A stretch of 23,782 nt of DNA from Symbiobacteriaceae bacterium (GTDB lineage: Bacteria; Bacillota_E; Symbiobacteriia; Symbiobacteriales; Symbiobacteriaceae): the NCBI GenBank assembly GCA_027356675.1, contig DAHVXO010000006.1, positions 1-23,782 of the forward strand. The letters are read 5' to 3'. Every line of letters starts with the position of its first letter. The stretch's first letter is position 1. Under the pieces are notes generated by a model that worked only from the letters and a program-made list of their open reading frames with translations, was not told where the DNA came from and made no database searches. Of this stretch, positions 5,719 to 23,413 are shown in pieces. A program made the translations under genes and the position numbers.

Positions 5719-5738
5719 GCTGAAGGGTGGTGGTAGGC

Positions 5739-7310
5739 ATGGGCGTACACCCCGAACCGGGTTATGACCTTGCTCAGCGGCTGCAAAGGGCAAGGCTGAG
5801 TGGTCAGCCGGGCCCGGCAGTTGATCCCCTTGGGGCTGCCGGTGCCGCAACCGCAAGAATCGATGAGCGTCGCCCGGTAACGGTTGGTGACCTGCCTGTT
5901 CCCGTGGCGGCCGGTCAACCGGCTATCGAGACATTGCAAGTTCATGAACCGGGCAGCCTGTCTCCTTCCCAGAGTCTCACACCAGGAGTCGACCTGTGGC
6001 TCGAAATGGCAGCGCACCCGCAGTTGCGGAGAGCCGTTAACGAAGTTCGAGGAGCATTGGCGGAAGGCAGCAAGTCAAAGGACGAGAATGATCGCCGGCT
6101 AACCCTGCTGGTCGAAGCCCAAGCCGGTGACCCCAAAGCGGAGGCGGAGCTCAAAGCCCAGATCGCCCAGGTCCTGCAGGAGCAGAAGCTGTTCGTCCCG
6201 GGCAAGGATCCAGCGCAGATCGTTGACGTCGTTTTCGACTGCTGCTGGGGTCTCGATGTGCTTGCACCGATCTACGCCGACCCCTCGGTTGAGGAGATTC
6301 GGGTCAACAGTCCCGACCGTATCTATACCATGCGGCTGGGGCGATCGTACCTGGAACCCATCCAGTTCGCCGACGAGGACCATCTCAAGCGGGTCATCCG
6401 GCGGGTTCTGCTGCACGACCGGATTGACATTACCCGCGACCAGCCACGTGTTGAAACGACCCGGCGAGACGGCTGCCGCGTCACGGCGTCGATCCCGCCG
6501 TTTACCCGCACAGTGACCATGGTCATCCGGAAATTCTCCTCAATCTCAATCACGGAAGCTGAGTTTCTTCATTACCGCTCCCTCAGTCACCGGATCCTTC
6601 GGATGCTCAAAGCATTGGCCAAGGGGCGTGCCAGCATTCTGTTAAGCGGCGGTACCGGCACGGGCAAGACCACGATGCTTCGCCTGCTCGTCAGTTTTCT
6701 ACCCCCACGCCTTCGCATTCTCACGCTCGAGACCGACTTCGAGCTTAACCTTCGCCACTACTTCCCTGACCGGGATATCGTAGAGATGGAGGAGCACAAG
6801 GAGTTAAGCCCGCCCATCACCCTGCAAGAAGCGTTCAAGACCATCCTCCGGATGACTCCCGACGTGATCATCATGGGTGAGTCTCGATCGGGTGAGGCAG
6901 ACGAGATGGTCAAGGCTGCTATGCGCGGTCACGACGGAAGCATGGGAACGGTTCACGTCAGCTCAGTCCCGGAGATTATCCCTGCGGTCTGCAACATGAT
7001 CCTCGAAGAGAAGCCACACCGCCCTCTTCCAGTGCTGCGCGAGCAGGTAGCGACCGCGTTTCAAATCCTTGTCCAGCTCGTACGCTGGCCCAGCGGCTGG
7101 AAGATGATCGAGGAAATCTGTGAGTGCTACTACGACCACGGCCGCGGGGAAGTGGTGTACAACCCGCTCGTGAAGTGGAAGTGGGCCGGCGATGACCCGG
7201 AACAGGGGGAGTGGGTCTTTCCCAACCGGCCATCTCCGCGACTGATTGAGAAACTGCGGCGGGGCGGCGTAACAACCCGCGAATTGCAGGAGGCGGAGAT
7301 GATTTGTTGA
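5739..7310 (+). CDS. cpaF: CpaF/TadA secretion motor ATPase
   Basis: A 523-residue hexameric-type ATPase that powers Flp pilus assembly at the cytoplasmic membrane. Seen: an unusually long, poorly conserved N-terminus (residues 1-135, including an Ala/Gln-rich stretch). Then LDVLAPIYADPSVEEIRVNSPDRIY, the standard CpaF N-terminal domain, followed by Walker A GGTGTGKTT (304-312), Walker B PDVIIMGESR (from 374) and the His-box GHDGSMGTVH (399-408). ATG 5739 is chosen because AAGGGTGG lies 8 bases upstream. Two GTG codons at 5727 and 5730 lie inside that ribosome site. The stop overlaps the tadB start. All catalytic motifs are intact, so it is probably active. Confidence 0.95.
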   Translation: MGVHPEPGYDLAQRLQRARLSGQPGPAVDPLGAAGAATARIDERRPVTVGDLPVPVAAGQPAIETLQVHEPGSLSPSQSLTPGVDLWLEMAAHPQLRRAVNEVRGALAEGSKSKDENDRRLTLLVEAQAGDPKAEAELKAQIAQVLQEQKLFVPGKDPAQIVDVVFDCCWGLDVLAPIYADPSVEEIRVNSPDRIYTMRLGRSYLEPIQFADEDHLKRVIRRVLLHDRIDITRDQPRVETTRRDGCRVTASIPPFTRTVTMVIRKFSSISITEAEFLHYRSLSHRILRMLKALAKGRASILLSGGTGTGKTTMLRLLVSFLPPRLRILTLETDFELNLRHYFPDRDIVEMEEHKELSPPITLQEAFKTILRMTPDVIIMGESRSGEADEMVKAAMRGHDGSMGTVHVSSVPEIIPAVCNMILEEKPHRPLPVLREQVATAFQILVQLVRWPSGWKMIEEICECYYDHGRGEVVYNPLVKWKWAGDDPEQGEWVFPNRPSPRLIEKLRRGGVTTRELQEAEMIC

Positions 7311-13999: not shown

Positions 14000-14488
14000 A
14001 TGGGCTGGACTTTGCTTCTGTCCGCCGGACTGGCTGCTGCTGTAATCCTGGACTACCAACATCGGTGGTTGCCAAACCTGTTGACCTTACCATTGGCTAT
14101 GTTGGGCCTATTGCGGGCGGCCATCACAGGAGACGGCAGCATTTCGAGCAGCGCCGGCGGACTCGTCTCCTTATTTGTGGTTTTCCTCATTCTGTGGCGC
14201 TTGCGTTTTGCCCGCGCCGGGGACGGCAAACTCGTCGCCGCTGTGGGAGCTTGGATCGGCTTTGACCGGGCGTACGGGTTCCTTGTGGCCTGGATCGTCT
14301 TCAACGCCTTGGCGTTCTTTACGGTCAGCATTCGTGCCCACGGCGGTTCTCTGGGCCGCTGGTGGCAGGAGCAACGAGTCAGCCTTCGCGGGGTGACCAT
14401 TGGCGTTCTGACGTGGCACGGAGCCCACAGTTACGCCGGCGCCATTCCGATCGCCCTAGCCACCCTGACCGTGCTAATTGTGCAATGA
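14000..14488 (+). CDS. tadV: Prepilin peptidase, TadV/CpaA type (A24 family)
   Basis: A 162-residue integral membrane aspartic protease that cleaves the Flp-type prepilins and TadE-type pseudopilins of this operon. Seen: the N-terminal catalytic motif D18-YQHRWLPN (usual form D-x-x-x-x-x-I/L-P-N), and the second catalytic Asp in RAGD75GK (usual GxGD-x-K), spaced and flanked by hydrophobic spans as in the family. The length fits the short TadV/CpaA class without an N-terminal methylase domain. ATG 14000 follows GGAGAGAGGG. It lies only 15 bases after the propeller-like gene. The interrupted coiled-coil gene begins 14 bases after its stop with its own AGGAGGT. Confidence 0.9.
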   Translation: MGWTLLLSAGLAAAVILDYQHRWLPNLLTLPLAMLGLLRAAITGDGSISSSAGGLVSLFVVFLILWRLRFARAGDGKLVAAVGAWIGFDRAYGFLVAWIVFNALAFFTVSIRAHGGSLGRWWQEQRVSLRGVTIGVLTWHGAHSYAGAIPIALATLTVLIVQ

Positions 14489-14502
14489 CAGGAGGTAGAC
14501 CC

Positions 14503-14574
14503 GTGATTCATCCGTTAGCAAAGCTAAGTGGTCCCCGCCGTAAATGCGGCAAGGGTTGTTCAATGAACTGGTAG
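14503..14574 (+). pseudogene. Severed 5' end of the coiled-coil protein gene
   Basis: AGGAGGT lies six bases before GTG 14503, which reads MIHPLAKL for eight codons to the TA at 14525-14526, where the IS630 element starts. The frame then continues 15 codons into the element and stops at 14572-14574. Joining codon CTA (14524-14526) directly to AGG (15791-15793) restores the reading HPLAKL-RHLAEQILNVVSEG in frame with the 3' part. Confidence 0.85.
14528..14555 (+). repeat. Left terminal inverted repeat of the IS630 element
   Basis: Starts GTGGTCCCCGCCGTAAAT. It matches the reverse complement of 15761-15788 at 20 of 28 positions, with the outer 18 bases matching at 16. Confidence 0.85.
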
Positions 14575-14631
14575 GACTTTTGATGGTCGGTCGCGAACTC
14601 CCATCGCAGTAAATGCTGGAGGTAGTTCGCC

Positions 14632-14916
14632 ATGCCAGGACCTGCTCCAACCTATCGCCCGACATTCACTGAAAAAGACATTCAGGATGCCCAGCGCGTT
14701 GCTCGTTCACATACGGCCCCCCATAGCCATGTCCAGCGGGCCAGGCTTGCCCTTATCTTAGCAGAGCGGCCCTCCATCGATAGTGCGGAGGCCGGGCGGT
14801 TGATTGGTTGGCATGTACAGACGGTCCTGAAGTGGCGCCGTCGTTGGGAAAAGGACGGCTTTACGTTGACGGATCTACCTCGCCCGGGTCGTCCGCCGTA
14901 TTTTTCCCCCTCGTGA
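14632..14916 (+). CDS. IS630 transposase, N-terminal part (frame 1)
   Basis: 94 codons from ATG 14632 with GGAGGT 7 bases upstream. It encodes the N-terminal helix-turn-helix region of the transposase: ARSHTAPHSHVQRARLALILAE ... AGRLIGWHVQTVLKWRRRWEKDGFTLTDLPRPGRPP, the typical IS630 DNA-binding module that ends at a GRPP linker. It stops at 14914-14916 just after a T5C5 run (14901-14910). The +1 frame over the same spot reads IFPPRDQAVVIALACERPS, the expected continuation. So it is either a decayed gene with one extra base or a transposase made by frameshifting or slippage at the run. Confidence 0.85.
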   Translation: MPGPAPTYRPTFTEKDIQDAQRVARSHTAPHSHVQRARLALILAERPSIDSAEAGRLIGWHVQTVLKWRRRWEKDGFTLTDLPRPGRPPYFSPS

Positions 14917-14926
14917 CCAGGCAGTC

Positions 14927-15760
14927 GTGATCGCCTTGGCCTGTGAGCGGCCATCTGACAGGGGGCGACCGTTAAGCCGTTATTCGGCTTTTGAGATTGT
15001 CCGTGAAGCCATCGCACAAGGGCTTCTTCCCATGATCAGCCCCACCACCGTCCTGCGCTGGTTACGCGACTTGGCCATCAAGCCCTGGCATTTTCGGTCA
15101 TGGATCTCGGTCCGGGACCCCGAGTTTGAAGCGAAAGCTGGACGTGTGTTAGACCTTTATGCCCGAACCTGGGATGGCGAGCCGTTGGGACGAGATGACT
15201 TCGTCATCAGTCTCGACGAAAAGACGAGCATCCAAGCCCGTGGTCGAAGGGAGTCGACCAGACCGCCGGCCCCAGGCCAAGTCATCCACCTTGAGTTTGA
15301 CTACAAGCGGGGCGGAGCCGTGGCCTACATGGCAGCACTGGATGTCTTTTCAGCGACTGTGATGGGGGAAGTCGTGGCAAGAACCGGGATTGCACCCTGC
15401 CGGGCGCTGGTTTCTAAGATTATGAGCCAGGAACCATACCGCTCGGCGCGGCGGGTGTTCTTTATTGTCGACAACGGTTCCTCACATCGGCCCAGCACTT
15501 TTGGGGCGTGGTTGACGGCCACATTCCCAAACGCAGTTGCCGTCCATACACCCATCCATGCGAGCTGGCTCAACCAGATCGAGATCTATTTCTCGATCCT
15601 ACAGCGCAAGGCCCTTACGCCCAATGACCTTAAGACCAGAAACGACGTAATCTCACGAATCCTGAAGTTCCAGCAGAAGTTCAACGAGGAAGCCGACCCA
15701 TTCAAGTGGCGTTTTACCAGAGAAGACATGATCCGCTGGCTTCAAAAGTCCGCCGCCTAA
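14927..15760 (+). CDS. IS630 transposase, catalytic DDE part (frame 2)
   Basis: 277 codons. The domain carries SLDEKTSIQ (first Asp), VFFIVDNGSSH (second Asp) and SWLNQIEIYFS (Glu), the complete DDE catalytic triad of IS630 transposases, with the typical KAL-x-P-N-D and KFNE motifs near the end. GTG 14927 is merely the first start codon. The frame is open upstream to the T5C5 run, where it joins the N-terminal part. The stop TAA directly abuts the right inverted repeat. If frameshifting occurs, the full transposase is about 375 residues. The catalytic half shows no lesion, so insertion may be fairly recent. Confidence 0.88.
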   Translation: MIALACERPSDRGRPLSRYSAFEIVREAIAQGLLPMISPTTVLRWLRDLAIKPWHFRSWISVRDPEFEAKAGRVLDLYARTWDGEPLGRDDFVISLDEKTSIQARGRRESTRPPAPGQVIHLEFDYKRGGAVAYMAALDVFSATVMGEVVARTGIAPCRALVSKIMSQEPYRSARRVFFIVDNGSSHRPSTFGAWLTATFPNAVAVHTPIHASWLNQIEIYFSILQRKALTPNDLKTRNDVISRILKFQQKFNEEADPFKWRFTREDMIRWLQKSAA

Positions 15761-15788
15761 CCCAATGGGAATTTAGGGCGAGGACCAC
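15761..15788 (+). repeat. Right terminal inverted repeat of the IS630 element
   Basis: The reverse complement starts GTGGTCCTCGCCCTAAAT, pairing with 14528-14555. It is followed immediately by TA (15789-15790) and the restored host codon AGG. Confidence 0.85.
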
Positions 15789-15817
15789 TAAGGCACCTGG
15801 CGGAGCAGATCCTGAAC

Positions 15818-16402
15818 GTGGTGAGCGAGGGGGAAGAGATTCCGACTCTTGAACGACGTGTCTCGGAGGCATCTGCCAGGGTGGCCAGCGCCGATCAGCG
15901 AACAGCCGCTCTCCGCACGGAGTTGGCCGCGGCGGAGCAAGAGCAAGCGGCGGCCCGGGAGGAGCTCCAGAGCCACCAGCAGAGCCTGGAGACCTTGAGG
16001 AACGGACTCTCCGGCAAGACTGCCGGCCTGTGCAGTCTGATGGCTGAGCTCGTGCAGGAAGGCATCGCTGAGCCGGTCCGGTTGCCCGAAGCCTCTCCTC
16101 TCGCTGAAGTCATCAGTCCTGCTCCGACTGAACCAGCCCCCCAAGGGTTGCAGTCCGCACCGGAACAGGCTGGAACCCACCTTCAGGAAGTGGCAGCCGC
16201 CGAAAAAACTGCTGTGCAGTCGGCAAGTGCATCGGCGCCACTCGGCAAGGAAGGGGCTAGCGGTGGGGTTTTACTCCAATTGGTGCGGCGCCCTCGGCCT
16301 GACAGCGCCTCCCAGCAGGTGGATGACGGCCCCGCCGTCCGCATTGACCGCCCCCCGCTTGAACGGGCCGCCGGCGGAGATCCAGTCTTCATCATCCAGT
16401 AA
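15818..16402 (+). CDS. Coiled-coil protein, 5' end cut off by the IS element
   Basis: The open frame actually begins at the IS border (AGG at 15791). GTG 15818 and 15821 are only possible restart codons, with no good ribosome site. Reconstructed with its first eight codons (14503-14526), it is a protein of about 212 residues. The N-terminal half (LERRVSEASARVASADQRTAALRTELAAAEQEQAAAREELQSHQQSLETLRNGL) is a long charged coiled coil without signal peptide, so probably cytoplasmic. The C-terminal half is Pro/Ala/Ser-rich and low-complexity, ending RPPLERAAGGDPVFIIQ. I do not recognise a family. As the next gene after tadV it may have been a cytoplasmic pilus or cell-pole scaffold (inference). 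The insertion probably abolishes or strongly lowers its synthesis. Confidence 0.65.
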   Translation: MVSEGEEIPTLERRVSEASARVASADQRTAALRTELAAAEQEQAAAREELQSHQQSLETLRNGLSGKTAGLCSLMAELVQEGIAEPVRLPEASPLAEVISPAPTEPAPQGLQSAPEQAGTHLQEVAAAEKTAVQSASASAPLGKEGASGGVLLQLVRRPRPDSASQQVDDGPAVRIDRPPLERAAGGDPVFIIQ

Positions 16403-16534: not shown

Positions 16535-17260
16535 ATGCGGAGATTCTTGGGTACGATGATCGTTCTAGCGCTACTGATGGGCCTTGGTGGCCAACGAACT
16601 TTTGCCGACAGCATGGATCCTCTGATGAGCCTCCCCAATGAAACGACCGTGATCGAGGCCGTCACCGCCGACGGCAGCATCGCCTCTCCCGATCGCATCC
16701 GCGCCTATGCCGAGAAGCTCAATAGCAGAGCACCGTCGGACCTGGCTGGAGTTCTCCAGCTCGGGATCGCCTGGCAGATGGCCCACGAGCCAGCAAGAGC
16801 TCGTCAGATGTTCGAGCGCGCTGTACAGTTGGCGCCGAACAACCCGACCTTGTATCCACGCCTCGCAAGTGTCGCCGTTGAGGGCATCACCGTCTACGTC
16901 AGAGGGCGGCGGGTCGAGTTTTCCGATGTCCAGCCACAGATCATCAACGGGCGAACCCTGGTACCGTTTCGTGCAGTTGCGGAGGCCCTGGGCGCCGATG
17001 TCAAATGGGATCCCGACACCGAGACCGCTACGGTAACACTGGATAGCCGAGCAGTGCGTCTGACCAAGGACCGCGACGTGGCCATGATCGGCCTGAACCC
17101 AACGATCCTGGATGTCCCCGCCTCGATCATCCCGCCCGGCCGGTTCGCCGTGCCGCTCAGATTTCTTAGCGAAGCGTTTGGCTACAAGGTGCACTGGGTC
17201 CAGATCAACCCGGGTAGCACCATCATCGGGATCTACCAGCAGTCGGAGGAGGGCTTGTAG
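16535..17260 (+). CDS. Secreted TPR plus copper-amine-oxidase-N (stalk) domain protein
   Basis: A 241-residue exported protein. Signal peptide MRRFLGTMIVLALLMGLGG with likely cleavage after TFA24. Then a short helical TPR-like stretch (LAGVLQLGIAWQMAHEPARARQMFERAVQLAPNNP, residues about 68-103). The C-terminal half is a Cu_amine_oxidN1 domain: VYVRGRRVEFSDVQPQIINGRTLVPFRAVAEALGADVKWD ... VPASIIPPGRFAVPLRFLSEAFGYKVHWVQ, with both copies of the GRT/F-x-VP-x-R-x-x-x-EA motif. Known: this domain is common in Bacillota surface proteins and binds no copper by itself. It probably attaches to the cell surface. ATG 16535 follows AAGGGGA. It lies three bases before the giant-protein gene, suggesting joint expression and possibly partnership. 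Confidence 0.85.
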   Translation: MRRFLGTMIVLALLMGLGGQRTFADSMDPLMSLPNETTVIEAVTADGSIASPDRIRAYAEKLNSRAPSDLAGVLQLGIAWQMAHEPARARQMFERAVQLAPNNPTLYPRLASVAVEGITVYVRGRRVEFSDVQPQIINGRTLVPFRAVAEALGADVKWDPDTETATVTLDSRAVRLTKDRDVAMIGLNPTILDVPASIIPPGRFAVPLRFLSEAFGYKVHWVQINPGSTIIGIYQQSEEGL

Positions 17261-17263
17261 CGC

Positions 17264-20200
17264 ATGAGGCGGAGTCGGTCACTCTGGGTCCTGTGGTCCC
17301 TGGCCTTCCTGTTTTCGCTGGTTTCACTAATCACTCCGTCGAGGAAGGCTGCGGCCTTTGACGCGACGGTAAGCCCGTCGGGCGTCACGGCCAGTAGTAA
17401 TCAAGACTACAGGGGCGTTGTCGGCACGTCATACAAGGATGCCAACAACTACCGGATCAAGTCGGCAACGTTCAGCTTTACCGGACGCAGAACGAGCTCA
17501 GGCAGTTCTACCACCAACGACTATACCTACCTGTACTACAAGACCTGCGTGGGTTGTGGGTGGTCCAGCATCGGTCCCTACTACGCCAACTCCGGCACAC
17601 TCGGGTACACCAACAAGACGGTCGACCTCACCCCTTACGGCAACGTCGTCGAAGTCGCGATGTATCTGTACACGCAGACCGGCCTGAACTCCGAGACTGC
17701 GACTGCTTCGGTCACCAGCGTCGTCATAGACTCACCGCCCTGGACCCCTGGCACGCCCTCGATCGCCGGCCCGGGTGTAGCCCGATCTGTTAACCCCACG
17801 GGAAGCTGGCAGACCTGGTATTCCGCCGAGTTCGTCGGCGCAAAGAAAATGACGGGCGCCCGCTTTTTGACGACCAACATTTACGGCGACGCCTATCTGC
17901 AAGGATGGAACAGCAACACGAACCAATGGGTGAACCTGATCACCCGCAGTTACAACGACAACGTGGTGGACCAGTGGTGGGACGGCCGCTCACAGACCAC
18001 GTACAACATTACAAAGCTCAGGGTCTACCAGAACACGTACACGGGCTACGGTGCCTTCTCAGAAGCCTACGTGCCCCAGGTCTATTACTTCGATGCCTAT
18101 GGTACCCCGGTCGACATTCCGGACAGCCGGAACCAGATCCGCATTGCCTGGACTGCCAATAACAATCCTGCAGGCACGGTTTATGAAGTCTCCCGCCGGG
18201 AGTACAACAGTACCGGGGTTCAGGTTTCGGATACCCTCGACTACAGCGGCACGAACCTGGAGTACGTGACCGATGACCTGCAGCCCGGTAAGTACTATAA
18301 ATTCCGGGTGAGGGCAAAGTCGGGTGGCAATACCAGTGCTGATACTACCGAAATCGCTTACTGGGTTCCCCCCGTACCCTCGGTCACACGGGACAACGCC
18401 AAGCTGAGCCTGAGCTGGACCGCTCCCTACCCGAGCCTCTCGTACTGGGTCTGGTACCGCCAAGCTGGCAGCGTTGACTGGTCGGGTGGATGGCAAACAT
18501 CAGCGACGTCGTACACAATCGACCCGGGCTGGAATTCGCCGTGGAATCAGTACGAGGTCTCACTGACGCCCCCCGGTTCCCTTCCCAACGGCGGCCCGAT
18601 GTGGCCCGTCTCCGACGGGCAAAAGTATCGCCCGATGTGGCCCGCACCATATGCCGCCCTTGCGTCGAATGTAACTGCAACTTCTGCACGCATCTGGTGG
18701 CAGATCAACTACAACTCCAGCTGGAATATCGATTCCGGCGTAAACATCCGAATCACCCGCTCGGATGGCACCAACACGGTCACGCTCCCCACAACGACGA
18801 CCGCGGCAGCGTCCGGCAACTGGTATACCCCCAGCGGCGCCAGCTACGGTTACTGGGGTTACGTCGACCAGACCGGCCTGACCCCGGGCCTCACCTATAC
18901 CTACACCATCTGCGCGCTCAACCCAGACAATGAGTGTGGTCCGGCCAGGACTGTCACGGTGACCCCCAAGCCGATCACCCCTGGAACCCCCACACTGTCC
19001 GCTGCCTCAACAACGCACCAGGTCAAGATCGACTGGACTCAGAATGGCAACGCAGCAGGCACCACGTACGAAGTCTGGCGGAAGACTGTTAATCCTGACG
19101 GCTCGGTCGCCAGGGATGAGCGCATCTTTACGGGGACTGACACTTACACGTACACCACGACCGGCACCTATGCCCAGAGCGCCGGAAAGTATTATCGGTA
19201 CCGTGTAAGAACTGTCGTGAGTGGCGTAAACAGCGACGACACATCCGAGGTTGCCTATTGGACGGCGCCGACCGCTTCCGTTACGAGGAGCACAGCTGGG
19301 TTCAACTTGTCCTGGACATTACCGGATGCCCCCTCAACGCAAAGCACCGGGGGCGCCCTGCGAATCTCCTCTTCAAGCTGCTCCTGGGTCAACACGAGCT
19401 ACTGGTACGTCCCCAATGGCACCACTTCCCGCGTCCGCGTCACCTTTACGGGTAACACCAACGACGCCTGGGGACTATATGCCTATTCGCCGTCTTACGG
19501 TTACTACTGGGTGATCCCACAGGCGAGCGTTCCTTCTGGAACCTACGACGCCTGGATTGACCTCCAGTATCCTGCGGACCGACTGCGGACCTACACCCAC
19601 GACTGCGGCGGCGGCGGGGCGACGATGGACGTGCCTGAGTTCATTAGTCCTTCGAGCACCACCGTCAACGTGGAATACTCCACAAACGGCACCACCTGGT
19701 CGACCTACACCTCCGGCACCACGGCAGAGGCGATCTCGATTCCCTCGCCGGGCACCTTGACTCCAGCCCAGAAATATCAGGTGGCCTTGACGCCAAACTC
19801 GCTTCCCAACGGAGGCACCGCCTGGCGATCAGTGAACAGCACCTGGTACAGCCCTCTTTGGACTTCGCCCGTCAATGCCCTGGCCACCGGCGTGAACGGA
19901 ACCTCGGCACGCCTCTGGTGGCAAATCTCTACCGGAAGCAGTTTCGTCATCGACCAGACGGCGAAGATCCGGATCACCCGCAGCGATGGCCAAACGCCTT
20001 TGAACGGTGTAACGACTCAGAACTCAAACGGTGCGTACGCTACGCCATCGGGGGGGAGTTACGGCTACTGGGGCTACATCGATCAGAGCGGCCTGACCCC
20101 CGGCGTCACCTACACATGGACCATCTGTGCGCTCAACGCCAATGATGAGTGCGGCGACGCCGATACCGTCACTGTAACCCCTAAGCCGCTTACGCCCACA

Positions 20201-23200
20201 ACCCCGACGCTGGCTGCCGCCACAAACACCTACCAGGTGAAGGTCGACTGGACTGCTAACGGGAACTCCAGCGGCACCACCTACGAAGTATGGCGGAAAA
20301 CCCTAAAGCCGGATGGAACGGTACTTCGGGATGAACGGATTTACAGCGGCGTCGATACCTACACCTATACCACTGCCGGCACCTATGCGCAGGATGACGG
20401 AGATTACTACCGCCATCGGGTAATTGCGGTCGTCGGCGGGGTCAGCAGTGCCGCCACGGCCGAAGTGGATTATTGGACACCCCCAGTTCCCGCGGTCTCC
20501 AACGGAGTAAACACACTGGATGTATCCTGGAATCCGCCGCTGAGCGCATCAACCCAAAGCGCCGGCACTGCCCTACGAATTTCTTCGTCAAGCTGCTCGT
20601 GGAACAGCACCAGTTACTGGTATGTGCCGGACAGTGGCACCACGTCCCGCATCCGGGTGACGTTCTCAGGCAATACCGGAGACCAGTGGGGCCTGTATGC
20701 CTACGCTCCGTCCTACGGCTATTACTGGGTGATATCGCAGCAGAACGTCCCCTCCGGCACCTACGACCAGTGGATCGACCTGCCCTATGCGGTCGATCGC
20801 CTGCGCACCTACGTCAACGACTGCGGCGGTAGTGGTGGGGCTACCATGGACGTTCCGGAGTATATCGCTCCGAGTCCGACGCAGGTAACGGTTCAATACT
20901 CGTCCAACGGCACCAGCTGGTCGAGTCACGTGACGGGCAACGGCAGCGGCTCGCAGTCCATCCCCGCCCCGAGCCCGCTCAGCCCGGCCCAGAAGTACCA
21001 GATCGGCCTCCTGCCAACCTCCCTGCCGAATGGCGGAACCGCCTGGCGCGCCGTCAACACAACCTGGTACAGCCCCCTCTGGCGCGAGCTGATCCAGAAC
21101 AATAACGGCACGGTCACACAGACCTCTGCCCAACTGTGGTGGGCAACGGGTGAATACAGCGACAACACCCGCCCAAGCCGGAGCTCTAAGGTTCAGCTTT
21201 CCCGTGATGGTGTGGTCATCGCCACGTTGACCCCGGGCACAGACATCACCTACTCCCTGCAAACTCGCAACAGCCGCTACGACTACTGGACTTCATACAC
21301 CGACAACGGGCTGGCCCCGGGCACCAGCTACACCTATTCTGCCTGTGTCCTGAACGCCCTGGACCAGTGCGGCACGCCTGTCACATGGTCTGTGCTCACC
21401 CTTCCCCCGACCCCGGACAGTACCCAGATGGACGTACAGTATGGATCCTACGGCTGGCAAAAGGTAGACACTGCCGGCGGTTGGGGCGAAATCAGTTTCA
21501 AGGCCGTCAAGAGCGCCACCAGCTACAAGTTGTACATCTCGGGCGCCGAGACCAGGACCCTGACAATCAACAGCAGCGCATCCGCAGGTTCCACCGTCAA
21601 GTACAAGGTAACCGACCTCGAAAGTGGCGGCGCTTACACCTTCAAGATCAGCGCCGTGAACACTACAGGTGAGGGCTCCCAGTCTGGAGCTGTTACCTTC
21701 TCCACCCCGAGTCGTAGCGACTCCGGCGCCCCCACCGGCACCAGCATTGTGCTAAATGACGGCGCCGCTACAACCGGCGGCACCCGCATACGGGTGGGAG
21801 GCACCGCGACTGATACCCTCTCCGGCGTCGCTGGGGTCCAACTGAGCAACGATAACAGCACCTGGTCGACCACGTATCCGCTGTACGACTTCACACAGGT
21901 CAACCTGATTACCTACAGTGGTGGCAATGCCTTTTTTAGCGATCTCGGCGGCTGGCAGACGGATAGCACTGCCTGGGCGAAGGTCCAGAATGACTCTTCG
22001 GCCCAGAGCGGCAAGGCCGTCAACATCCGCTGGGATGGCACCACCTCTGACCGCTGGCAGGGGCTCGACCTCGCCAAGAACCTGACGGTCACTGGCGGGA
22101 AGCAGTATACGGTCCAGGTGCGATATAAGGTCACGGGCATGACGACCGGCCGGGCCGCCGTCTGGTCGAACTGGCTGACAGGTAGCACCACCGTCTCCAG
22201 CGCAGATCACGTCTTCGCTACCACAAACGGGCAGTGGGCAACCGAGACGTGGACGCTGACGGCGCCTGCCAGCGCCAACGGCCGAAACATTACCCTTGGC
22301 TTTGACCAGGCAAACCTCGGCGCCACGCTCTGGGTCGACTACATCGTCGTCAACGAGGGGCCAGCGCCCATCTCACCCACCAACTCGTTGCCAAACCCGG
22401 TATCCAATCAGGTCGAATGGACCATATCTGGAAGCAGCTTCGGGTCTAAGACCGTATACGCGCGCTTTGTCGACGCCGTCGGTAACCAGAGCAGCGCCGT
22501 TTCGGCGTCGATCCAGTTCATGCTGACCGACACGACGGCGCCCAGGGTCATCCTCACGATCAACGGCCAGACTACCGGAGGTTCCACCCCAAGCACTACG
22601 GTGACGCTGCAGATCACCGCGTCCGATGCCGAATCCTCCCAGGACCTGCTGAAGATGCGGTTCAAGAACGACAGTGGCCAGTGGTCGCCATGGGAAGACT
22701 ATTCCCCAACCAAAGCCTGGACGATCTGCACAGGCCTCACGCCCAGCCTCTGTGAGGGGCGGCGCAGTGTCTGGGTAGAGGTCCAAGACCCCGCCCAGAA
22801 CACGGGCGGCGCCGTTGCCGACATCTTCTTCAGGACCAGTCTCAATCCTGTTCAGGACGCAGCAACGGTTTGGGCAACCACTGGCAGCCAAGGTAACTAT
22901 GACACTGGCTCAGGAACCGTCACGGTGCAGTATGTGCGAGTCTCGGAGATCGCCCTGAGTCTTGACCTGACGAAGTTCCCAGGCGTGCGCACGGTTCGGT
23001 ACGGTTTTGATCCAAACCGATACGGTCAGTGGGAGCCCATCAGCGCTACGAAGAGCCTCAGCCTGCCGATCGTTCAGGGCATTCAGACGCTCTATATGCA
23101 AACCGATGCGGGCCAGTCCTATCAGATCCGGTTCCTGCTCGATTTCACTCCCCCTGAGATGACTGCCACCTGGAAGGGAGGGGCCACGGCCACTCGCCCC

Positions 23201-23413
23201 GGCGGCAAGGCCACCTTGGTCCTGACCGGCGAGGACAACGTGAGCCGGAATGAGGACTTGCAAGTCTCTATCAACGGGGGAACCTGGCGGGCTTGGGCCC
23301 CGGAGATGGAGATTACCCTAACCGGTAGTGGCCTGCAGACAGTCACCATACGCGTGAAAGATCCAGCAGGTAACCAGAAGACTCTGAACCTCAATTTGTG
23401 GGTAATGCCGTAG
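17264..23413 (+). CDS. Giant secreted fibronectin-III/Ig-like surface protein (2049 residues)
   Basis: Signal peptide MRRSRSLWVLWSLAFLFSLVSL with likely cleavage near KAAAF. The N-terminal 280 residues include a CVGC motif and a discoidin-like jelly-roll region (TGARFLTTNIYGDAYLQGW). Then come about ten fibronectin-III domains, several closed by CALNxxxECG-type cysteine pairs, in two large duplicated units (see repeat entry). The next part holds Ig-like domains (TDTLSGVAGVQLSNDNSTWS; SDAESSQDLLKMRFKNDSGQWS) with a CBM4/9-like jelly roll inserted into one of them. The C-terminus ends in an Ig-like strand (VTIRVKDPAGNQKTLNLNLWVMP) without LPXTG, SLH or membrane helix. ATG 17264 follows GGAGGAGGG. 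The composition is rich in Thr, Ser, Tyr and Trp, as in secreted adhesins. A role in surface attachment or polysaccharide binding is inferred. Confidence 0.85.
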   Translation: MRRSRSLWVLWSLAFLFSLVSLITPSRKAAAFDATVSPSGVTASSNQDYRGVVGTSYKDANNYRIKSATFSFTGRRTSSGSSTTNDYTYLYYKTCVGCGWSSIGPYYANSGTLGYTNKTVDLTPYGNVVEVAMYLYTQTGLNSETATASVTSVVIDSPPWTPGTPSIAGPGVARSVNPTGSWQTWYSAEFVGAKKMTGARFLTTNIYGDAYLQGWNSNTNQWVNLITRSYNDNVVDQWWDGRSQTTYNITKLRVYQNTYTGYGAFSEAYVPQVYYFDAYGTPVDIPDSRNQIRIAWTANNNPAGTVYEVSRREYNSTGVQVSDTLDYSGTNLEYVTDDLQPGKYYKFRVRAKSGGNTSADTTEIAYWVPPVPSVTRDNAKLSLSWTAPYPSLSYWVWYRQAGSVDWSGGWQTSATSYTIDPGWNSPWNQYEVSLTPPGSLPNGGPMWPVSDGQKYRPMWPAPYAALASNVTATSARIWWQINYNSSWNIDSGVNIRITRSDGTNTVTLPTTTTAAASGNWYTPSGASYGYWGYVDQTGLTPGLTYTYTICALNPDNECGPARTVTVTPKPITPGTPTLSAASTTHQVKIDWTQNGNAAGTTYEVWRKTVNPDGSVARDERIFTGTDTYTYTTTGTYAQSAGKYYRYRVRTVVSGVNSDDTSEVAYWTAPTASVTRSTAGFNLSWTLPDAPSTQSTGGALRISSSSCSWVNTSYWYVPNGTTSRVRVTFTGNTNDAWGLYAYSPSYGYYWVIPQASVPSGTYDAWIDLQYPADRLRTYTHDCGGGGATMDVPEFISPSSTTVNVEYSTNGTTWSTYTSGTTAEAISIPSPGTLTPAQKYQVALTPNSLPNGGTAWRSVNSTWYSPLWTSPVNALATGVNGTSARLWWQISTGSSFVIDQTAKIRITRSDGQTPLNGVTTQNSNGAYATPSGGSYGYWGYIDQSGLTPGVTYTWTICALNANDECGDADTVTVTPKPLTPTTPTLAAATNTYQVKVDWTANGNSSGTTYEVWRKTLKPDGTVLRDERIYSGVDTYTYTTAGTYAQDDGDYYRHRVIAVVGGVSSAATAEVDYWTPPVPAVSNGVNTLDVSWNPPLSASTQSAGTALRISSSSCSWNSTSYWYVPDSGTTSRIRVTFSGNTGDQWGLYAYAPSYGYYWVISQQNVPSGTYDQWIDLPYAVDRLRTYVNDCGGSGGATMDVPEYIAPSPTQVTVQYSSNGTSWSSHVTGNGSGSQSIPAPSPLSPAQKYQIGLLPTSLPNGGTAWRAVNTTWYSPLWRELIQNNNGTVTQTSAQLWWATGEYSDNTRPSRSSKVQLSRDGVVIATLTPGTDITYSLQTRNSRYDYWTSYTDNGLAPGTSYTYSACVLNALDQCGTPVTWSVLTLPPTPDSTQMDVQYGSYGWQKVDTAGGWGEISFKAVKSATSYKLYISGAETRTLTINSSASAGSTVKYKVTDLESGGAYTFKISAVNTTGEGSQSGAVTFSTPSRSDSGAPTGTSIVLNDGAATTGGTRIRVGGTATDTLSGVAGVQLSNDNSTWSTTYPLYDFTQVNLITYSGGNAFFSDLGGWQTDSTAWAKVQNDSSAQSGKAVNIRWDGTTSDRWQGLDLAKNLTVTGGKQYTVQVRYKVTGMTTGRAAVWSNWLTGSTTVSSADHVFATTNGQWATETWTLTAPASANGRNITLGFDQANLGATLWVDYIVVNEGPAPISPTNSLPNPVSNQVEWTISGSSFGSKTVYARFVDAVGNQSSAVSASIQFMLTDTTAPRVILTINGQTTGGSTPSTTVTLQITASDAESSQDLLKMRFKNDSGQWSPWEDYSPTKAWTICTGLTPSLCEGRRSVWVEVQDPAQNTGGAVADIFFRTSLNPVQDAATVWATTGSQGNYDTGSGTVTVQYVRVSEIALSLDLTKFPGVRTVRYGFDPNRYGQWEPISATKSLSLPIVQGIQTLYMQTDAGQSYQIRFLLDFTPPEMTATWKGGATATRPGGKATLVLTGEDNVSRNEDLQVSINGGTWRAWAPEMEITLTGSGLQTVTIRVKDPAGNQKTLNLNLWVMP
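18367..21405 (+). repeat. Three large repeat units in the giant protein, two with an inserted Cys module
   Basis: Unit 1 (about 18367-19261), unit 2 (about 19262-20478) and unit 3 (about 20479-21405) each contain a fibronectin-III domain ending in LPNGG-x-x-W, a second with YGYWGY-type aromatic strands and the CALN-x-x-x-x-CG pair, and (units 1 and 2) a third with TTYEVWRKT. Units 2 and 3 carry an additional module of about 110 residues starting LRISSSSCSW and ending DCGG-x-G-GATMDVPE, absent from unit 1. The DNA of units 2 and 3 is still recognisably similar. Confidence 0.8.

Follow-up and report, generated by a model that had tools for sequence, protein, structure and literature searches.

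An IS630-family element with a two-frame transposase and a probably interrupted gene in a Tad-type pilus locus

Within a 23,782-nucleotide stretch of a Symbiobacteriaceae genome (contig DAHVXO010000006.1; hereafter the window), profile searches located a Tad-type pilus locus comprising CpaB, whose match exceeds its curated cut-off, a CpaF-type ATPase, and an A24 prepilin peptidase. Directly behind the peptidase gene, a ribosome site and eight codons run into an insertion sequence, and a coiled-coil-like open reading frame follows on its far side. The locus raises two questions: whether the element sits inside a gene of the operon, and whether its transposase, spread over two reading frames, is broken. 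A preliminary description had proposed that an IS630-family element inserted early in a Tad-locus gene, and domains, repeats, reading frame, ribosome site, and coding model agree in upholding that proposal. Our overall reading, which we hold with considerable confidence, is an IS630 insertion into an orphan operon gene, with a duplicated TAA and a two-frame transposase joined at a T5C5 tract. The features of the region are as follows, in window coordinates.

14000..14488, + strand: TadV-type prepilin peptidase gene (Pfam Peptidase_A24, 4.6e-14), directly 5' of the putatively interrupted gene
14490..14496, + strand: Shine-Dalgarno sequence AGGAGGT of that gene, 6 nt ahead of GTG 14503
14503..14526, + strand: first eight codons of that gene (MIHPLAKL), start GTG
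14525..14527, no strand: left copy of the target duplication, best read as TAA (TA in the first reading)
14528..15788, + strand: IS630-family insertion sequence, 1261 bp, with symmetrical tips GTGGTC...GACCAC
14528..14549, + strand: left terminal inverted repeat, 17/22 positions matching the right one
14632..14916, + strand: transposase ORF1, helix-turn-helix part (HTH matches below the Pfam cut-off; IS630 model 2.6e-6)
14901..14910, + strand: T5C5 slippage-type tract, site of the frame change
14927..15760, + strand: transposase ORF2, DDE part with D97, D182, and E219 present (DDE_3 5.8e-12; IS630 model 7.3e-26)
15767..15788, - strand: right terminal inverted repeat
15789..15791, no strand: right copy of the target duplication, best read as TAA
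15791..16402, + strand: remaining codons of the putatively interrupted gene, coiled-coil-like, ending at stop TAA
15881..16402, + strand: shortened form of that gene, predicted protein P0001 (173 aa), starting at GTG 15881
16535..17260, + strand: next downstream gene, with a TPR and a copper-amine-oxidase N-terminal domain (Cu_amine_oxidN1, 5.5e-30)

The gene run continues past the last of these with a 2049-residue protein (17264-23413) that is repetitive, secreted-looking, and, by eye, of fibronectin type. Between 14400 and 15900, no sigma-70 consensus promoter was found; terminator-like sites numbered five (1.3 expected), of which two overlap and none lies at the right end of the element.

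The case for an interrupted gene begins with its start. GTG 14503 lies 14 bases past the end of the peptidase gene, and the pattern AGGAGGT-N4-8-RTG occurs on both strands of the window only at 14490-14503. Because shuffled sequences carry this pattern 0.57 times per window, it is its position right behind a gene end that bears the weight. It had been claimed that removing 1264 bases joins the flanks in frame, and this was borne out: in all six registers from 14523 to 14528, the excision gives the single joined sequence GCTAAGG, across which the reading frame stays open. The 8- and 203-codon parts combine into a protein of 211 residues followed by a stop, so the 212-residue product described earlier holds in its two parts, with the stop having been counted as a residue. 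By our reading, one heptad register accommodates the hydrophobic residues on both sides of the join (L5 and L8 in front, A12, I15, and V19 behind). In the present DNA, the 5' piece reads VIHPLAKLSGPRRKCGKGCSMNW, 23 residues terminating at TAG 14572-14574, and the 3' piece shares its frame with transposase ORF2, starting 10 codons past the ORF2 stop and remaining open until 16402.

We then examined whether the right-hand frame is coding, using a codon model that contrasts a reading frame with the other five. Thirteen neighboring genes served as the test set (12 left out in turn, with the large Fn3 gene outside the training set throughout), and frame 0 ranked first in 13/13. For the interrupted ORF, the stated frame was best, at 0.093 against -0.022 for the next frame, and likewise in both halves; for the 132-nt gap behind it, the stated frame was not best. 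Synonymous codon choice alone did not separate the frames (0.085 for the interrupted ORF versus 0.111 for the +1 frame and 0.143 for one reverse frame) and, being indecisive as a coding test, was replaced by the model above. Among 7997 candidates scored for homologues of the coiled-coil protein, the sole return was P0001 (99% identical), the window's own prediction, and none of 40 candidates matched when the query was cut to the initial 44 residues of the 3' piece to avoid alanine- and glutamate-rich words. The failure of these searches to detect a homologue counts against the gene and its assigned start. The CpaF gene (5727-7310) was searched as well. A genome-contig scan with six 8-residue patterns, which detects solely relatives sharing one of them, gave a single match, a 34%-identical Arthrobacter locus, and no close relative; against plasmids, the best-ranked match reached 34.7%, and all 1788 records were below 60% identity. 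Given such distant CpaF relatives in the searched data, the host lineage of the window may be poorly sampled.

Two other accounts of the flanks have to be set against an interrupted gene. The element could be intergenic, the coiled-coil gene having always started at GTG 15818 or GTG 15881, with the eight codons being a chance start or a leader peptide. Sequences resembling ribosome sites do stand before both codons (GGAG at 15802-15805 and GGAGG at 15865-15869), and P0001 is predicted from 15881, yet their spacers of 12 and 11 nt are long, whereas GTG 14503 combines a perfect AGGAGGT and a 6-nt spacer with a frame that is open over the exact join. The first half of the 3' piece, including the stretch before 15881, also scores as coding in the codon model, and we regard an intergenic element as unlikely. 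It is more improbable still that the element struck no gene at all, the right-hand ORF being open merely by chance in DNA of 60% G+C. The failure to find a homologue, the indecisive synonymous codon bias, and the long opposite-strand ORFs that occur inside known genes of the window would all suit that view, but the codon model ranks the frame first in both halves, and without this ORF, a gap of ~780 bases in the operon would lie behind a perfect ribosome site.

That a short gene directly behind the prepilin peptidase gene was interrupted is thus well supported. An IS630-family element would have jumped, in the direction of the operon, into a short, lineage-specific gene at the CTAAG site of codons 8-9, duplicating TAA. 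What remains of the gene would be a dead-end peptide of 23 residues and a downstream part that either stays silent or restarts from an internal GTG. The earlier claim that an accessory gene of the pilus operon is disrupted survives in part: interruption is supported, "accessory" was drawn from position only, as any role in the pilus would be, and disruption is probable but not certain, as GTG 15818 or GTG 15881 could yield a shortened protein. These two internal codons have weak ribosome sites, and the insertion may shorten the protein instead of abolishing it; loss of gene function is what we infer, not what we observe. For annotation, this case illustrates how a gene caller can miss where an operon gene really starts once an element has inserted into it.

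Next, we considered the ends of the element. The inverted arms at 14524-14545 and 15771-15792 (22 nt, 86% complementary) are the longest inverted pair in the inverted-repeat search; the tip pair scores 17/22, a level that chance pairs can reach in a search without a flank condition. TA is present on both sides of the element, as the preliminary description had noted when it counted the element plus one TA copy, and it is the extent of the duplication that we would revise, since TAA is the better reading and leaves an element of 1261 bp. From a single copy, TA and TAA are indistinguishable; TAA is preferred because the symmetrical tips leave TAA on both sides and because relatives show TAA or TTA.

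For the relatives, 30 elements were examined, a set slightly different from that used for the transposase comparison below. Defining ends by inverted repeats alone was abandoned, as it yielded mostly chance pairs. Both tips were placed in 15 elements, 13 by a right-end motif plus a T(N)A shape and two (L009 and L058) by eye. TAA or TTA was identical on both sides in 11 of these, TA in one (L006), and the flanks differed in three (L039, L042, and L058). As the search sought T(N)A shapes, what carries information here is solely the matching middle base, together with the tips. A duplication of TA only would place an extra base in the left tip of some elements and in the right tip of others, whereas TWA gives GTR...YAC tips throughout. 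The placed tips were rechecked by an inverted-pair search without any flank condition. Seven placed pairs scored 18-22/22 (L040, L049, L005, L034, L035, L042, and L044), with identical TWA in six and a difference in L042. The two best rows did not include the placed pair of L004 or of L006, and L007 and L037 scored only 14/22; non-placed pairs in L006 (17) and L052 (16) indicate that the score alone hardly separates values of 16-17 from chance. In L008, ~27 bases (ACTGAGGGGGACGGGCGCGACTCAACG) occur twice, once beyond the right tip and once a short way ahead of ORF1, which would fit a lost left end or a misassembled contig.

A TA duplication is given as the rule for the whole group, with TATA for Sailor elements, in the part of the literature available to us (PMC8533490). 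No paper reporting a three-base duplication in IS630 was found by title or abstract, nor in the accessible part of PMC10214660, and ISfinder may record one. We lean slightly towards the proposal that a widespread IS630 clade, split (T/C tract) and fused members alike, departs from the TA rule of the family, inserting at CTWAG (sometimes CTAG), duplicating TWA, and carrying GTR...YAC tips, and that one of its branches depends on slippage in a T/C tract for its transposase. A TWA duplication, if true, matters for placing the ends of such elements.

We then turned to the transposase. ORF2 matches DDE_3 at 46.1 bits against a cut-off of 28.6, and its residues D97, D182, and E219, which we take to be the catalytic triad, are invariant across the 16 rows of alignment A1. 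The IS630 model scores 27.1 bits for ORF1 and 91.3 bits for ORF2, each half lying under the full-length cut-off of 100. Domain support for ORF1 is weak, and its codon-model score is -0.028, with its own frame still best.

To place the frame change in context, we compared 30 distinct elements, including that of the window, with at least 44% identity and a match reaching the first ten residues of ORF2; weaker or later-starting matches were excluded, and eight rows that repeated an identical 120-base stretch were removed. The plasmid members were 19 elements drawn from 60 listed matches, some chosen because they were annotated as two genes. Every element with a TnCm tract was split (10/10: the window element, L004, L053, L037, L058, L007, L006, L008, L064, and L011; 48-100% identity), the conserved GRP motif of ORF1 lying in the frame from which ORF2 is reached by omitting one base. 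Every element without a tract was fused at that point (20/20), with GRP in the frame of ORF2; two of these (L005 and L045) have an additional chance GRP match in another frame, and in three (L038, L039, and L050), a stop occurs deeper within ORF2. Tract composition varies (T8C3, T6C5, T5C6, T5C5, T4C7, T4C6, T3C7, and T3C6), whereas place and direction are constant. The compared elements are related, and these cases do not count as independent events.

These comparisons bear on whether a one-base indel has broken the transposase and left the element dead. Two ORFs in different frames, together with relatives that are fused at the split place, are what such decay would leave behind. Against this, the tract-bearing elements are all split at the same place and in the same direction, the tract-less ones are all fused, and P0003, 79% identical, is itself an ORF2 that matches this one in length (277 aa). 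We give a dead element very little credence. The contrast within one IS630 clade (10/10 split with the tract versus 0/20 without) makes slippage the likely normal mode of expression, and the split transposase is very likely a normal slippage arrangement and not decay.

The two frames would be joined at T5C5, most likely by losing one base in transcription, as in the Roseiflexus IS630. For that element, the portion of the study available to us describes transcriptional realignment in T5C5 and an upstream hairpin that matters (PMC6211511). A second, partly accessible source names the Roseiflexus case and states that frameshifting occurs in the IS630 family (PMC5009743), and a third reports, in the part seen, that clusters of IS630-type transposases show frame transitions in both directions (PMC3711429). 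The frames fit a one-base ribosomal shift equally, and it is the published T5C5 case that tips the choice towards transcriptional slippage. Ahead of the window's tract, an RNA stem can be drawn, though none stronger than in shuffled sequence (z -0.53; -0.41). Slippage itself, like current activity of the element, is inferred.

Taken as a whole, the insertion is ordinary IS630 biology in an orphan operon gene, close to its start. This reading is correct at its core and of limited reach, and the split transposase and insertion site are more informative than the interrupted gene. The window resembles Tad/Flp pilus loci in CpaB, the CpaF-type ATPase, and the A24 prepilin peptidase; no counterpart of the interrupted gene was detected in any other such locus, the protein search having returned the window's own protein alone.

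Close comparisons are also offered by IS630 elements from plasmids (Streptomyces, Rhodococcus, Mycobacterium, Dietzia, Polaromonas, and Halococcus), from genomes in the phylum of the Arthrobacter match, and from two viral contigs; their transposase cores are 44-58% identical to that of the window. Their placed tips are GTR...YAC and their sites mostly CTWAG, and at the window's split point, 20 of the 30 distinct elements have a single frame. Eight placed ones are longer, at 1.63-1.67 kb against 1261 bp, and seven of those loci have a related divergent passenger gene. In these seven fused-type elements, the passenger lies between the left tip and the transposase, is divergent from the latter, and encodes 108-121 aa with 53-97% mutual identity:

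L034, 160-495, - strand: passenger gene
L035, 153-509, - strand: passenger gene
L039, 198-524, - strand: passenger gene
L040, 193-528, - strand: passenger gene
L042, 128-478, - strand: passenger gene
L044, 114-479, - strand: passenger gene, its end extending a few bases past the tip
L049, 173-505, - strand: passenger gene

A Pfam scan of six of the seven gave bacterial PH-domain matches below the cut-off in two and no match in four.

The Roseiflexus IS630 is likened to the window element through its published description, as far as that was available to us (PMC6211511 and PMC5009743). The window element differs in that its upstream stem is no stronger than in shuffles. The two have in common the IS630 family and a T5C5 tract, which in the window sits at the frame change of the transposase.
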